Positions 2,393 through 9,456 of a stretch of 64,000 bases of DNA are shown one piece after another. The stretch is from NCBI GenBank assembly GCA_003994795.1, contig AP018269.1, positions 3,249,484-3,313,483 on the forward strand, given 5' to 3'. Each line of letters starts with the position of its first letter. The first letter of the stretch is position 1. The position numbers were made by a program, and so were the translations under genes. The notes below the pieces were generated by a model, which did not search any database, was not told the origin of the DNA, and worked only from the letters and a program-made list of their open reading frames with translations. The stretch comes from Cylindrospermum sp. NIES-4074. GTDB lineage: Bacteria > Cyanobacteriota > Cyanobacteriia > Cyanobacteriales > Nostocaceae.

Positions 2393-4309
2393 TTAAAGTT
2401 GGGCTGGTACTCCCACATAAAACATCAGCAATACCAGCACAAATGCCGCAAATGCTCCTGTAGCTCTAAGCTGAGTTCTATTTAAAGGTATTTTTGCTTC
2501 TAAGCCAAGATTACCGGCAAATAAATAACCTGCAATGCCAGCAAAAGAGGCTGCTAAAAATCTAACTATTGCTAGAGTTCCGCCGTTCATAACTCTAGGG
2601 TTAAGGGCAAGCACAATAAAAGTTATTAATACTGCTAACGCCATAGCAAGTGCAATACCACGTTCAGCTGATGAAATGTGCGAAGGTGGTTTCTGATCTG
2701 GTGGTGGTAGCGGATTGTTCATAGATTGATTATTAATATTTCTAGGCTTGTCTATTGTCTCATAATCTTTATCTCGTTGGCGACGTTCTTCTTCAGTTTC
2801 AATACCGTTTAACAGTTCTCGCGCATTAAAAGCTTCGGTTAATCCTGGGGGGATGATAGGTAAATTCTTCTCTGCATAAACGAGTAAGTTTTTGTAGTCT
2901 ACAACAATATTGGGATATCCCGGAATCGGCACTTTTTCTTCTGGTACTAATCCTTTAATAGTCTGATGAATAGCATCAAACTGAGAACGGATCATCGCCA
3001 GTAGTTCCCGACGGGTGGCAGTGGGGCCGCTAATAGAAATAAAGATTTTGCGGTCTTCTTGATCACTCTTCACCAAAGCTCGGTTATTTTGGTATTTTAA
3101 AACAATGCCACTACGCCACCAAGTGCGCTTCTCCCCATGATGGTGCATTCGCACAATAAAGCGGGAAATAATGCTGCTAGGGAGGACATTGTAATGATAT
3201 TGGAAAGCTAGAATATTCTCCCAATCTCCCGTTGCCGGTTCTTCTTTAGGTAACAAGTCGGGGATGAGATACCTATCACTATTACCACCTTCCAGGGGAA
3301 AGCAAAGTTCAAATTTCCGCATCATCTCAATAATGAATTGTTGCTTACTGCGGGGATATTGGCGGCTGTCTAAAATTCTGTGCAGTTGATTGCGCTCCAG
3401 AATACCCCGGAATTCAGTTATTAACCGATTGTCATTGAGAATCTTGTAAACAGCATTTGTCACCCACTCCGGGTTAAGGACATGGGTATCTTCTAAGCGG
3501 GGGTCGTCGCGGAAGTTGAGGACTATACCCAAGCGATGCAGCAGTTCAATTAGGGTGAATTGGTTAACTTTATCGGTAATTAGCTCCTCCAAACACAGAC
3601 GTTCATAGTCGCTGTAGGGAATGTAGTCGTTTTCCATCTGTTCTAGACGAGTTTTGACCTGAAACCAGCTTCGGGGTAAGACATCGTGAATATGTTCTAA
3701 GCAAGAAAGTTCACGGATGATAGTTGACTGCAATTGCTCCAGACCTTCCCCAGTTTTGCAGGAGACAGGCACTATATCTTTAATAGAGGGGTATTTTTGC
3801 CGCAGTCCGCGCTGGTCGATATCCAAGGGATGATCATCAATCTGGTTGCCAACAAGGATAATAGGAGAATCATCGCCAAAGCTTTGGATAATTTTCAGCC
3901 AGTATTCCAGTTGATTTTGTCGCTCATCATCACGGGACTTTAGCACCAACAGGTAAAGACTGCGTTTGGTCAGAAAAAATTGGTGGGTAGCGTGCATGAT
4001 TTCCTGGCCGCCAAAGTCCCATACATTCAGCCTGATGGATTGGTTATTAATGATAATTTGCCAATTTTGGATGTTAATGCCTTCCGTTTTGGGTTGGTGG
4101 GGGTCATAGCTGTTTTCAATCAGCCGTTTGACGAGAGAGGTTTTGCCCACATCACCTTGTCCTACTAGCAGTACTTTAGCTTCGTTGAGGGGCTTTTTTT
4201 GCTCGGCTTGCAGAGAGAAATAGTAACTGAGAATCTGGGACGGCTCACCCAAACTACCCCAACTATCACCTAAAATTTCCGGCGGAATTGGCAGCTGATT
4301 ACCACGCAA
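2393..4309 (-). CDS. Roc-COR GTPase portion of the Roco protein, with C-terminal membrane segments
   Basis: 638 residues from the first ATG; the same frame stays open upstream to the frameshift near 4671 and encodes more LRRs. Roc domain: P-loop GQGDVGKTS (about residue 50), DFGGQEIMH as G3, and GNQIDD at the NKxD position. A COR-like region follows to about residue 480 (for example DTHVLNPEWVTNAVYKIL). A charged linker leads to two or three hydrophobic helices (ALAMALAVLITFIVLAL and AAFVLVLLMFYVGV), so the C-terminus is probably membrane anchored. Roco proteins are dimerisation-dependent GTPases; bacterial partners are mostly unknown. Translation alone would lack most of the LRR sensor. Confidence 0.8.
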   Translation of the reverse strand: MRGNQLPIPPEILGDSWGSLGEPSQILSYYFSLQAEQKKPLNEAKVLLVGQGDVGKTSLVKRLIENSYDPHQPKTEGINIQNWQIIINNQSIRLNVWDFGGQEIMHATHQFFLTKRSLYLLVLKSRDDERQNQLEYWLKIIQSFGDDSPIILVGNQIDDHPLDIDQRGLRQKYPSIKDIVPVSCKTGEGLEQLQSTIIRELSCLEHIHDVLPRSWFQVKTRLEQMENDYIPYSDYERLCLEELITDKVNQFTLIELLHRLGIVLNFRDDPRLEDTHVLNPEWVTNAVYKILNDNRLITEFRGILERNQLHRILDSRQYPRSKQQFIIEMMRKFELCFPLEGGNSDRYLIPDLLPKEEPATGDWENILAFQYHYNVLPSSIISRFIVRMHHHGEKRTWWRSGIVLKYQNNRALVKSDQEDRKIFISISGPTATRRELLAMIRSQFDAIHQTIKGLVPEEKVPIPGYPNIVVDYKNLLVYAEKNLPIIPPGLTEAFNARELLNGIETEEERRQRDKDYETIDKPRNINNQSMNNPLPPPDQKPPSHISSAERGIALAMALAVLITFIVLALNPRVMNGGTLAIVRFLAASFAGIAGYLFAGNLGLEAKIPLNRTQLRATGAFAAFVLVLLMFYVGVPAQL

Positions 4310-4329: not shown

Positions 4330-5200
4330 TGAGTTGCTGTATTTCCGGGGGTAAGGTCGTCAGTTGATTATTTTCGAGGGAAAGCTGGGTGAGGGCGGTG
4401 AGTTGACCTATCTCTGCTGGCAGGGTTTTCAGTTGATTTCTGTTGAGGTCAAGCTCGGTGAGGGTGGTGAGTTGACCTATCTCTGCTGGCAGGGTTGTCA
4501 GTTGATTGTCGCTGAGGTAAAGCCGGGTGAGGGCGGTGAGTTGAACTATCTCTGCTGGCAGGGTTGTCAGTTGATTGTCGCTGAGGTAAAGCCGGGTGAG
4601 GGCGGTGAGTTGAACAATCTCTGCTGGCAGGGTTGTCAGTTGATTGTCACTGAGGTAAAGCTGGGTGAGGGGGTGAGTTGAACTATCTCTGCTGGCAGGG
4701 TTGTCAGTTGATTGGCGCCGAGGTCAAGCAGGGTGAGGGTGGTGAGTTGAACAATCTCTGCTGGCAGGGTTGTCAGTTGATTGTCACTGAGGTAAAGCTG
4801 GGTGAGGGCGGTGAGTTGACCTATCTCTGCTGGCAGGGTTTTCAGTTGATTGTTGTAGAGGCGAAGCTCGGTGAGGGCAGTGAGTTGAACTATCTCTGCT
4901 GGCAGGGTTGTCAGTTGATTTCTGTTGAGGAAAGCAGGGTGAGGGTGGTGAGTTGAACTATCTCTGCTGGCAGGGTTTTCAGTTGATTGGCGCCGAGGTC
5001 AAGCTGGGTGAGGGCGGTGAGTTGACCTATCTCTGCTGGCAGGGTTGTCAGTTGATTTCTGCTGAGGTCAAGCAGGGTGAGGGCGGTGAGTTGACCTATC
5101 TCTGCTGGCAGGCTTGTCAGTTGATTGTTGCTGAGGTAAAGCAGGGTGAGGGCGGTGAGTTGACCTATCTCTGCTGGCAGGCTTGTCAAGCTTTGTCCAG
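4330..5200 (-). repeat. Tandem leucine-rich repeats (69-bp unit)
   Basis: Twelve near-identical 69-bp units plus degenerate end units. Each encodes 23 residues of the form LTxLDLxxNQLxxLPAEIGQ, the bacterial LRR consensus. Units differ mainly at the residues before and after NQL, as expected from unequal crossing-over. On the plus strand the repeat gives spurious open frames rich in LCWQGCQLI, which I do not regard as genes. Two units are 68 bp long and carry the frameshifts. Confidence 0.92.
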
Positions 5201-5285
5201 AAAGGTTTAATTTGGGTGCTTTGTCTCTGGCAGCTTTTTGAATGATTTGCAGCAGTTCTTTGTTGCTCATGGGTGGGGCTTCCAC
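4911..5285 (-). CDS. N-terminal LRR fragment of the Roco protein
   Basis: 124 residues. A leader (SNKELLQIIQKAARDKAPKL) and SLTSLPAEIG-type repeats run until the frame breaks near 4930, where the expected GAGGTCAAGC of other units reads GAGGAAAGC, one base short; translation then ends in SSTEIN. As it stands it would be a soluble, truncated LRR protein. The intact gene would continue into the Roc-COR part. The start is chosen because the leader is typical of cyanobacterial Roco proteins. Confidence 0.7.
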   Translation of the reverse strand: MEAPPMSNKELLQIIQKAARDKAPKLNLSGQSLTSLPAEIGQLTALTLLYLSNNQLTSLPAEIGQLTALTLLDLSRNQLTTLPAEIGQLTALTQLDLGANQLKTLPAEIVQLTTLTLLSSTEIN

Positions 5286-5392
5286 AGAGTTTGCAGGAGA
5301 GATGTGTAGCTTATGACCAATTTAGCCTGTATAAAAGGTGAAATGGGCGAATCTGGTTTTATTGGTTTATTTATCCCCACTCCGAGCCTAAA

Positions 5393-5805
5393 GCTTGAAA
5401 CTTCCACCCTAAAGCTTGGAACTTTTACCCTAGAGCTTGTAACTTCGAGCCTAGAGCTTGGAACTTCCACCCTAAAGCTTGGAACTTCGAGCCTCAAGCT
5501 TGGAACTTTCACCCTAAAGCTTGAAACTTCGAGCCTCAAGCTTGAAACTTCGAGCCTCAAGCTTGAAACTTCGAGCCTAGAGCTTGGAACTTCGAGCCTC
5601 AAGCTTGGAACTTTGAGCCTAAAGCTTGGAACTTTGAGCCTCAAGCTTGGAACTTTGAGCCTAAAGCTTGAAACTTCGAGCCTCAAGCTTGGAACTTTGA
5701 GCCTCAAGCTTGGAACTTCGAGCCTAGAGCTTGGAACTTCGAGCCTAAAGCTTGAAACTTCCACCCTAAAGCTTGGAACTTCGAGCTTCAAGCTTGAAAC
5801 TTCCA
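5393..5805. repeat. 21-bp minisatellite, 20 tandem copies
   Basis: The landmark GCTTG occurs at exactly 21-bp intervals from 5393 to 5792, giving 20 units related to AAGCTTGGAACTTCGAGCCT with a few variant bases (CCACC for GAGCC, GAAAC for GGAAC). Because 21 is a multiple of three, both strands stay open through the array: heptapeptides LKLGTSS on plus and LEVPSFR-like on minus. No start with a ribosome binding site or flanking domain supports a protein on either strand, so I call it non-coding repeat DNA. Confidence 0.92.
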
Positions 5806-5901
5806 CCTTTTCTGGTTGTCGAGGATAGAGCGATCGCACTGCTGCAAATGAATTTATAGTAGTGGCGTGGCAAGCATAAATTTGTGCATTATGTTTTTCT
5901 C

Positions 5902-5959
5902 GTAGAACAGGCGTCTCGCCTGTTTTGGGCGGGCGAGACGCCCACCCCACAAGAAGCTT
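5902..5959 (+). repeat. 58-bp dispersed repeat, copy A (inverted relative to 9754-9811)
   Basis: Contains two short hairpins, AACAGGCG/CGCCTGTT and a GGGCG/CGCCC arm, and ends in AAGAAGCTT. Its reverse complement is identical over all 58 bp to 9754-9811. The copies enclose ilvA and the riboswitch-glycosyltransferase unit. Confidence 0.9.
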
Positions 5960-6083
5960 CATTTGGCGCGACACAGAGAAATGAGAGTTTGAGAGATATT
6001 CTGCGTAAGTCCTATTTAGCTAAGTAATCACCAACTAGCGGTAAAATTAACATCCACCCCCAAAACCCCCACCCCTTGACCCC

Positions 6084-7595: not shown

Positions 7596-7723
7596 CGGGT
7601 TAGAGAATAGGGTTGTAGGTACGTCGGTGGGGGGTGAGAGGAAAATACATGAAGAAACGAACCGCGAAGGACGCAAAAAACGCAAAGGAAGAAGGGTTAG
7701 AGAGAGTTCTTGCGTAAGTCCTG

Positions 7724-7757
7724 GATTTTTAATTTTTAATTCTTAATTTTTAATTGT
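7724..7757. repeat. Short TTTTTAA-type heptamer repeat array
   Basis: Four or five degenerate copies of a TTTTTAA/TTTTTAAT unit follow the ilvA region. Heptanucleotide tandem repeats of this kind are a known feature of heterocystous cyanobacterial genomes. No function can be read from it. Confidence 0.55.
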
Positions 7758-7829
7758 TTAACCCCTTGACATAACAGGGGATTACCAGTTATTATCTCAA
7801 GGCGTAAAATCGGTCTGCCTAATCCATAA

Positions 7830-8015
7830 CTTACCCTAGAAACATTTATGCATCTGGGTAAGCCGGGAGCGGAGGAACCAAGTGTGGGGCGAATCTCCAA
7901 AAAGGGTCAAAGAAAGAGTGCGAAGCATCAATTTCCAACTTTACCCTTGGGGAGAAGGACATCTCTCAGTCCTAGTCCGTCAGCTAACTTCGTCGGCATT
8001 GAGAGGAGACTGAAC
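7830..8015 (+). promoter_or_regulatory. c-di-AMP riboswitch (ydaO-yuaA leader)
   Basis: Conserved blocks of the ydaO motif appear in order: GGGAGCGGAGGAACCAA (from about 7865), GGGGCGAATCT (about 7887), a GGGGAGAAGGACATCTCTCAGTCC segment spread over 7949-7972, and TCCGTCAGCTAACTTCGTCGGC (7976 on). A 7-bp stem CTTACCC/GGGTAAG (7830-7836 with 7856-7862) closes the 5' side. In characterised members c-di-AMP binding promotes termination and lowers expression of osmolyte or cell-wall genes. Here it precedes the sucrose-phosphate-synthase-like gene at 8176 by about 160 nt, and the TCCTTGGCT/AGCCAAGGA pair (8056-8112) may belong to its expression platform. No other gene lies in this 580-bp spacer. 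Confidence 0.88.
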
Positions 8016-8175
8016 GAGCAGCATTGTTTTGAGTAATGCTTTGTTCTCGTCAGTGTCCTTGGCTGGTAACTTTCCGCTGCGTTGTCCCTGCCATTGAGCC
8101 TGAGCCAAGGATGATCATACCTTGAATTCTGGCGTCTGAGGCAGGATTAGTTGCCTTTGAGGTTAAGTTCTACTT

Positions 8176-9456
8176 ATGCTGTTCCAGAGTACAAAAAATC
8201 GCATTGCCCTAATTTCCGTTGATGGTGATCCCGCCGCAGACATTGGTCAAGAAGAGGCTGGGGGTCAAAATGTCTATGTGCGTCAAGTTGGTTATGCATT
8301 GGCTGAACAGGGTTGGCAGGTGGATATGTTTACCCGCCGCAGTAGTTCTGAGCAAGCTACTATTGTGCAACATAGCCACAACTGTCGCACAATTCGGTTA
8401 CAGGCTGGGCCTGTGGAGTTTATGGGACGAGATCACTTGTTTGACTATCTCCCGGAATTTGTCGCCCAATTTCTGCGATTTCAAAAGCAGCAAGGATTTT
8501 CTTATTCCCTAGTGCATACCAATTACTGGTTATCTTCTTGGGTGGGGATGGAACTGAAAAAGCACCAACCGCTGATTCAGGTACATACTTACCACTCTTT
8601 GGGAGCGGTAAAATACAGAACAATTGGTGATGTTCCTGTGGTGGCTGTGCAACGGTTAGCGGTGGAAAAAGCCTGTTTGGAGAATGTAGACTGTGTGGTG
8701 GCTACCAGTCCCCAAGAACAGAAGCATATGCGGATACTGGTTTCCACTAAGGGACGAACGGAAATGATTCCCTGTGGAACTGATATTGAGAAGTTTGGTG
8801 GTGTTGAACGGTCTGTCGCTAGGGAGAAGTTGGGAATTGCCGCAGATGCGAAAATGGTTCTGTATGTTGGGCGCTTTGACAGGCGGAAAGGAATTGAAAC
8901 TTTAGTGAAAGCTGTTGCTAGGTCTAGGTTTCGGGGTGAGGGGAATTTGCAATTGGTGATTGGTGGTGGTAGTCGTCCTGGTCAAAGTGATGGGTTTGAG
9001 CGCGATCGCATTTCTGGCATTGTAACAGAACTAGGACTGCAAGATTGTACCACCTTCCCAGGTCGCTTAGATGACAGCATTCTCCCGTACTACTACGCGG
9101 CTGCTGATGTCTGCGTCGTGCCGAGCCACTATGAACCATTTGGTTTAGTTACCATTGAAGCAATGGCGAGTCAAACCCCTGTGGTAGCTAGTAATGTGGG
9201 CGGTTTGCAGTTTACCGTTGTTCCAGAAGTGACAGGTTTACTGGCTCCTCCCAAAGACGAAATTGCTTTTGCAAATGCGATCAATCGTATACTTAGTGAT
9301 GCAGATTGGCGAGATCAGTTAGGAGCAGCTGGACGCCAAAGGGTAGAAATTGCTTTTAGTTGGTATAGTGTGGCCACCCGACTAACTCAGTTGTATAAAA
9401 ATCTGCTGGCTCAAAGTGCAAATAAATCTCAGAAACAAGCTCAAATTGCGGCTTAA
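8176..9456 (+). CDS. Glycosyltransferase family 4 protein, sucrose-phosphate-synthase-like
   Basis: 426 residues, a GT-B fold. The N-terminal IALISVDGDP...GQEEAGGQNVYVRQV loop is that of sucrose-phosphate synthase and sucrose synthase, and VHTYHSLG and NYWLSSWVG match SPS family blocks. The C-terminal donor site has YVGRFDRRKGIETL, VPSHYEPFGLVTIEAMA and SNVGG. Its length fits the minimal cyanobacterial SPS without a phosphatase domain, which joins UDP- or ADP-glucose to fructose-6-phosphate. I infer but cannot prove that acceptor. A GAGG lies about 15 nt before the ATG. The long leader carries the c-di-AMP riboswitch, consistent with control of a compatible solute by osmotic signalling. Confidence 0.85.
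   Translation: MLFQSTKNRIALISVDGDPAADIGQEEAGGQNVYVRQVGYALAEQGWQVDMFTRRSSSEQATIVQHSHNCRTIRLQAGPVEFMGRDHLFDYLPEFVAQFLRFQKQQGFSYSLVHTNYWLSSWVGMELKKHQPLIQVHTYHSLGAVKYRTIGDVPVVAVQRLAVEKACLENVDCVVATSPQEQKHMRILVSTKGRTEMIPCGTDIEKFGGVERSVAREKLGIAADAKMVLYVGRFDRRKGIETLVKAVARSRFRGEGNLQLVIGGGSRPGQSDGFERDRISGIVTELGLQDCTTFPGRLDDSILPYYYAAADVCVVPSHYEPFGLVTIEAMASQTPVVASNVGGLQFTVVPEVTGLLAPPKDEIAFANAINRILSDADWRDQLGAAGRQRVEIAFSWYSVATRLTQLYKNLLAQSANKSQKQAQIAA

Follow-up and report, generated by a model that had tools for sequence, protein, structure and literature searches.

We estimate, with a probability of roughly 75%, that the leader at positions 7839–8175 of the DNA examined here is a riboswitch, and that c-di-AMP controls the adjoining sucrose-phosphate synthase (SPS) gene of Cylindrospermum sp. 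NIES-4074 through this leader, whichever the sign of control. The window, by which we mean the whole stretch of 64,000 nucleotides that was analyzed (AP018269.1:3,249,484–3,313,483), belongs to a genome of 7.7 Mb, and all positions below refer to it unless another contig or locus is named.

The aptamer and its surroundings

We compared the 64-kb window with Rfam using cmscan, and found that RF00379 was the single match above the gathering threshold. The c-di-AMP riboswitch aptamer occupies positions 7839–8013 of the plus strand (62.8 bits versus a gathering score of 38, E 3.5e-12), and model positions 1–134 are covered completely. The first-pass annotation had proposed a ydaO-yuaA riboswitch in this 5' leader and had named a covariance search with RF00379 as a check, and the match bears out that proposal; its span begins 9 bases 5' of the aptamer, at 7830, and ends exactly with the gene, at 9456. 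The distance from the end of the aptamer to the SPS start codon is 162 nt (gene, 8176–9456). A consensus scan also detected a promoter-like site, TTGACA-18-TATTAT, 5' of the aptamer on the plus strand (7766–7795, 11/12 matches); two such sites were present in the region 7600–8260, compared with a mean of 0.5 (sd 0.9) in shuffled sequences, these being pattern matches only.

The known aptamer helices served as a positive control for a pair screen of the leaders, in which double-change and broken cells count sequences rather than events. In 65 distinct leaders (99 before the removal of near-duplicates), the helix GCGGAG:CUUCGU exhibited five double-change cells and AGGAC:GUCCU eight, with no broken cells in either. 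The presumed 5' strand of the pseudoknot, CUCUCA (7963–7968, plus strand), is complementary to the 3' strand UGAGAG (8000–8005, plus strand). The full stretch UCUCUCAGU:AUUGAGAGG comprises nine pairs joining a loop to the 3' end (7962–7970:7998–8006); across the 65 leaders, we counted 20 broken cells and 12 one-sided changes in this stretch, and no double change. Between these strands lies a conserved strand that is unpaired at nine positions in the Rfam consensus structure, GUCAGCUAA (7979–7987, plus strand), hereafter strand J. The leader thus resembles the RF00379 class in its full-length aptamer above the curated score, its loop-to-3'-end complementarity and its 5' leader position.

Elsewhere in the window, positions 4364–5974 are repetitive, with overlapping open reading frames on both strands, of which that at 4911–5285 (minus strand) reads as leucine-rich repeats.

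The enzyme encoded downstream

The open reading frame at 8176–9456 (plus strand) encodes a putative minimal SPS of 426 amino acids, possibly an SPS-A orthologue, belonging to the GT4 glycosyltransferases. Two GT4 domains scored above their cut-offs (PF00534, E 7.2e-42; PF13579, E 8.1e-24), and the best match among solved structures was Tll1590 (TeSPS, 6kih; E 8.9e-141), followed by MshA (3c48; E 3.5e-63). Identity to TeSPS, the assayed SPS of T. elongatus and likewise a minimal GT4 enzyme (PDB 6kih; PMC7264703, which like the other papers cited is drawn on in excerpt), was 223 of 400 aligned residues (about 55%). All 11 catalytic or ligand-contact residues of TeSPS are kept in the window protein, compared with 6 of 11 in MshA as a control, in which both fructose contacts are missing; the 11 residue numbers were taken from PMC7264703, with a chain-to-paper offset of 3 inferred from A48 and Q51. 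These positions were invariant across 37 proteins of the riboswitch clade except for one A48S.

It is conceivable that the protein is a GT4 enzyme with another acceptor, MshA-like or resembling the glucosylsucrose synthase Tll1591, as its top NCBIfam match was MshA (281.1 bits, cut-off 462.5) and the NCBIfam SPS model TIGR02472 gave 128.7 bits versus a cut-off of 576. However, the assayed TeSPS scored alike with the same profiles (MshA, 288.7; SPS model, 144.8); because it too falls below the cut-off, TIGR02472 does not cover the minimal type of SPS, and we rejected the identification as MshA on the strength of this control. Together with the retained residues, among them the two fructose contacts absent from MshA, and within a comparison comprising TeSPS and MshA, this leaves another acceptor very improbable. 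The view that the window enzyme is a minimal SPS of the cyanobacterial type is supported both by these residues and by its resemblance to an SPS that has been assayed, in keeping with the sucrose-synthesis signatures that had been read from the GT4 sequence at first pass.

Two further close SPS homologues are encoded in the genome (67% and 65%). In one homologue, on contig C4 (L006, 70–2778), the SPS-like domain lies C-terminal to about 480 residues without a Pfam match, within an open reading frame of 902 amino acids. A candidate S6PP-family phosphatase was found at C1:3454743 (PF05116, model 2–247, E 1.9e-74), a family that also occurs in 11 of 14 control genomes, including E. coli.

Linkage of aptamer and SPS across relatives

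To the extent covered by our searches, the pairing of aptamer and SPS is conserved and copy-specific: it is found in one SPS clade and is absent from sister copies where tested. Relatives were collected from a genome collection by searching with the window protein, and the best 80 of 114 are the named loci; since the search patterns came from the window protein, close kin are favored. RF00379 was located upstream on the same strand in 36 of the 80 named SPS loci (16/16, 15/16, 4/17, 1/16 and 0/15 in successive batches), and because of this recurrence the pairing in the window is more than chance. All 36 aptamer-bearing loci fall in the SPS clade of the window protein. Among the 44 without the aptamer, 42 had at least 350 nt of upstream DNA, and RF00379 was detected in none of these 42, two of which lie inside the riboswitch clade.

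In a tree of 83 proteins, the aptamer label requires 2 changes, compared with 27.4 for shuffled labels. The smallest well-supported group to contain every one of the 37 riboswitch rows comprises 39 rows (98/83), and 40 (100/96) when L122 is counted. The extra rows are L079, L084 and L122; the contig of L122 begins 79 nt upstream, and L079 and L084, clade members with testable upstream DNA, gave no RF00379 match even at E 0.01. A match to MIR847 in the Rfam search of L084 was below gathering and was taken as chance.

A search of 217 Nostocaceae genomes listed 82 SPS matches at E up to 1e-190. The window is itself one of the best 57; the upstream DNA of the other 56 was retrieved, together with that of 5 among the 25 ranked next. 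The aptamer precedes 55 of the best 57 among these 82 matches, in 54 genomes (54/56 by nhmmer, plus the window), the two without it being G022, with a contig as long as that of L084, and G100; nhmmer found it in none of the five sampled among the next 25. The named-locus and Nostocaceae counts are not independent, since many assemblies are shared and the named loci, probably without the row of the window, were the training set of the nhmmer profile. Over 80 fetched upstream regions, nhmmer gave 63 strong matches, 1 weak match and 16 without a match, and Rfam, applied to 20 of the 80, recovered RF00379 in 10, nine of which come from four other families of the order. The weak match (L194, 220–398; 19.8 bits), on a contig as long as that of L079, lies at the expected place of the aptamer, was not confirmed by Rfam and is possibly a remnant.

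The messenger and other RF00379 sites in the genome

The genome contains one match to the diadenylate cyclase domain (DAC, PF02457) and one to PF07698 (7TM-7TMR_HD), a phosphodiesterase candidate; since both proteins are encoded, c-di-AMP can be made and probably degraded. RF00379 occurs at three sites genome-wide. The two others (L017), at C1:5323877–5324084 and 5327458–5327593, are 3.4 kb apart. One lies 5' of a set encoding a permease, an NMT1-type binding protein and an ATPase, of which the permease and ATPase exceed the cut-offs of NCBIfam models of nitrate ABC transporters. The second lies 5' of a Usp gene, which is followed by a CitMHS/ArsB-type transporter.

The expression platform

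No intrinsic terminator was found on the plus strand in the region 7600–8260, the sole terminator-like site lying on the other strand. In this respect the leader differs from the RF00379 class, and its platform would be of the translation type. The Shine-Dalgarno core GAGG (8159–8162, plus strand) is located 13 nt 5' of the start codon in a context conserved in the leader alignments; in most leaders, folding predicts it to be mostly base-paired.

A hairpin after the aptamer (8009–8054, plus strand) is closed by ACUGA:UCAGU, for which we counted 1 double change and 9 broken cells over five pairs in 89 leaders from two gene contexts. It is followed by a candidate anti-aptamer strand, UUGGCUGGU (8059–8067, plus strand), which is the complement of strand J and is hereafter termed anti-J. 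All nine pairs between the two strands are possible in 59 of the 65 leaders, eight in 5 and six in 1; as a control for chance, 132 of 5000 dinucleotide shuffles of the window platform held a full nine-pair complement of J. Because both strands are nearly invariant, this pairing exhibits no double changes. Other aptamer strands also have potential partners in the platform: the 3' strand of P1 (7995–8002) can pair with 8050–8057, and the 3' strand of the pseudoknot can pair with UUCUCG at 8044–8049, an alternative with 0 double changes and 25 broken cells over six pairs in the 65 leaders. Further downstream, CCUGCC (8087–8092, plus strand) could pair with 8061–8066, with one U.U mismatch as read by eye, or with its possible 3' partner GGCAGG (8140–8145, plus strand), for which 2 double changes and 25 broken cells were counted in the 65 leaders.

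The pair screen returned 61 stretches of at least five pairs, many of them mutually incompatible, and complementarity alone is therefore weak evidence; the stretch with the most double changes corresponds to no known helix. Of the 28 pairs that RNAalifold predicted from 33 leaders, none exhibited a double change.

The conserved platform is common to the SPS leader and an ABC-transporter leader. Among transporter-type leaders taken without preselection, 7 contained a full nine-pair complement of J, and the rest reached 7 or 8 of 9 at best. The agreement of the 24 aligned transporter leaders is not independent, because they were picked partly by a motif of the GGCUGGUAC type.

Some further arrangements were observed at other loci. 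An SPS gene and an ABC permease gene lie head to head, and a separate RF00379 site precedes each of them, in L058 (3167–3386, minus strand, and 3676–3843, plus strand) and in L065 (2925–3132, minus strand, and 3658–3840, plus strand). RF00379 leaders with a different platform were seen in L024, L025, L026, L028 and L042; in L026, L028 and L042 these are followed by short open reading frames that start with PI(K/Q)NR-(A/T)-FF.

Mechanism and sign of control

Translation is the likely level of control. In the mechanism that we propose, c-di-AMP would stabilize P1, strand J and the pseudoknot, whereas in the absence of ligand these same aptamer strands could pair with the platform at 8044–8067. 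Such a strand exchange would alter the downstream pairing, so that the Shine-Dalgarno core would be either masked or exposed. If the switch is OFF at high c-di-AMP, a falling c-di-AMP level would release sucrose synthesis. The predicted product of the enzyme is sucrose-6-phosphate, from which a separate phosphatase would yield sucrose.

Given a working switch, we somewhat prefer the sign OFF at high c-di-AMP to ON. We computed the accessibility of the Shine-Dalgarno core under folding constraints. In 21 of 65 leaders, the core was more open when the aptamer was imposed than when anti-J was imposed (median log10 ratio –0.32), and in 25 of 65 it was more open with the imposed aptamer than in unconstrained folding (median log10 ratio –0.20). 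Constraint folding thus leans weakly toward OFF and leaves the sign undecided, in a model that folds without pseudoknots and in which the Shine-Dalgarno core is nearly always masked. Riboswitches for c-di-AMP are described as off-switches (PMC9960051), and in the riboswitch of the osmolyte gene ablA, fewer than 5% of transcripts pass with c-di-AMP in vitro (PMC9337991). For the ablA leader of Dehalobacter, pairing of the P1 and pseudoknot strands with the platform has been proposed (PMC9337991); that leader likewise precedes a gene for an osmolyte precursor, and the proposed alternative pairing of aptamer strands with the platform is similar to the one considered here. However, it differs in that it has transcription terminators and a Na+ riboswitch in front, in tandem, and belongs to the beta-lysine pathway.

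We further considered the opposite sign, in which c-di-AMP would hold J in the aptamer and free anti-J (8059–8067) for CCUGCC (8087–8092), which would unmask the Shine-Dalgarno core and activate sucrose synthesis. The strands needed for this are conserved in SPS leaders and in transporter leaders, the latter chosen partly by motif, and ON was also the prediction of a pairing ladder that we drew by eye; however, folding agrees in the 21 of 65 leaders only, and the c-di-AMP riboswitches described in the literature excerpts (PMC9960051, PMC9337991) are OFF. The published c-di-AMP levels point both ways. After 24 h of salt, c-di-AMP was up in Anabaena PCC 7120, which would suit an ON switch, but down in F. 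diplosiphon, which would not, and unchanged in Synechocystis and Synechococcus; with sorbitol, it was higher in Synechocystis and F. diplosiphon, again as an ON switch would have it, and did not rise in Anabaena (PMC5986932). The c-di-AMP responses in cyanobacteria thus do not fit one sign, and on the whole we regard an ON switch as rather unlikely. Far less probable still is a silent aptamer, with the gene governed by its promoter alone, for instance through the salt regulator OrrA. The promoter-like site 5' of the aptamer, the clade members without an aptamer and the reported regulation of sucrose synthesis by OrrA in PCC 7120 under salt stress (PMC6753628) are in favor of this explanation; however, the aptamer and platform are conserved over several families of the order, and nearly all of the best 57 Nostocaceae matches keep the aptamer. 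Control of the SPS gene by c-di-AMP through the leader, with OFF as the somewhat preferred sign, remains our reading.

Which isozyme carries the aptamer

The riboswitch clade may correspond to SPS-A, an indirect assignment by composition. The published composition of SPS-A from Anabaena PCC 7120, as excerpted, is W5 Y14 F15, with 54% identity to TeSPS. Among 36 riboswitch-clade proteins, one shares this published composition exactly (L062, Nostoc parmelioides), and none of 45 proteins without the riboswitch does; near misses occurred in both groups, for example L212–L214 (W5 Y14 F14–16) and L218 (W5 Y14 F13). Identity to TeSPS was 52.0–55.4% in the riboswitch-clade proteins and 50.4–55.6% in the others, and the published 54% does not discriminate SPS-A because both groups span it. 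OrrA has spsA as its particular target; PMC6753628 states no more than the regulation of sucrose synthesis by OrrA. The heterocyst enzyme is SPS-B, which NtcA activates (PMC4390843, PMC4046671). We looked for NtcA-like sites (GTAN8TAC) within 400 nt upstream; none of the 36 riboswitch loci had one, compared with 2 of the 42 others and 0 of 20 loci of the Nostocales sister clade, and the identification of the sister copy as SPS-B by such sites was dropped.

We tentatively propose that cyanobacteria divide sucrose synthesis between SPS paralogues by means of an RNA switch, such that an SPS-A-type osmotic copy would carry the c-di-AMP riboswitch and anti-aptamer platform, and a sister copy, plausibly the heterocyst SPS-B, would be without them; the same module on a nitrate-type ABC transporter would then form part of a c-di-AMP osmotic regulon. 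Our confidence in this proposal, somewhat short of even, was lowered slightly because the 54% identity is non-discriminating and the NtcA-like sites lent no support to SPS-B.

Relation to published work and implications

Nelson 2013 is credited with linking cyanobacterial c-di-AMP riboswitches to the synthesis and transport of osmoprotectants (PMC4284465, PMC5986932). A cyanobacterial c-di-AMP riboswitch has been reported as verified for Synechocystis slr0753 (PMC10117731); set beside it by description, the present leader differs in its target, which there is a putative chloride efflux transporter (PMC10117731). A literature search, to which the gene lists of Nelson 2013 were external, found no paper joining c-di-AMP riboswitches to SPS; in the excerpted literature, one review named both c-di-AMP and sucrose phosphate synthase, and no joining of the two was found there. 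The riboswitch class, its presence in cyanobacteria and the general link to osmoprotectants are thus already in print, and the present work adds that the aptamer is confined to one SPS clade and that the platform is shared.

These results suggest that c-di-AMP directs the production of sucrose for protection against salt or drought. The signaling that activates sucrose synthesis in salt-stressed cyanobacteria is, according to PMC6753628, poorly understood. Should the switch work, c-di-AMP would act directly, via RNA, on a gene for making sucrose, and on one SPS copy only. What c-di-AMP does in cyanobacteria under osmotic stress would then become testable, and the leader would offer a natural handle for steering sucrose production.
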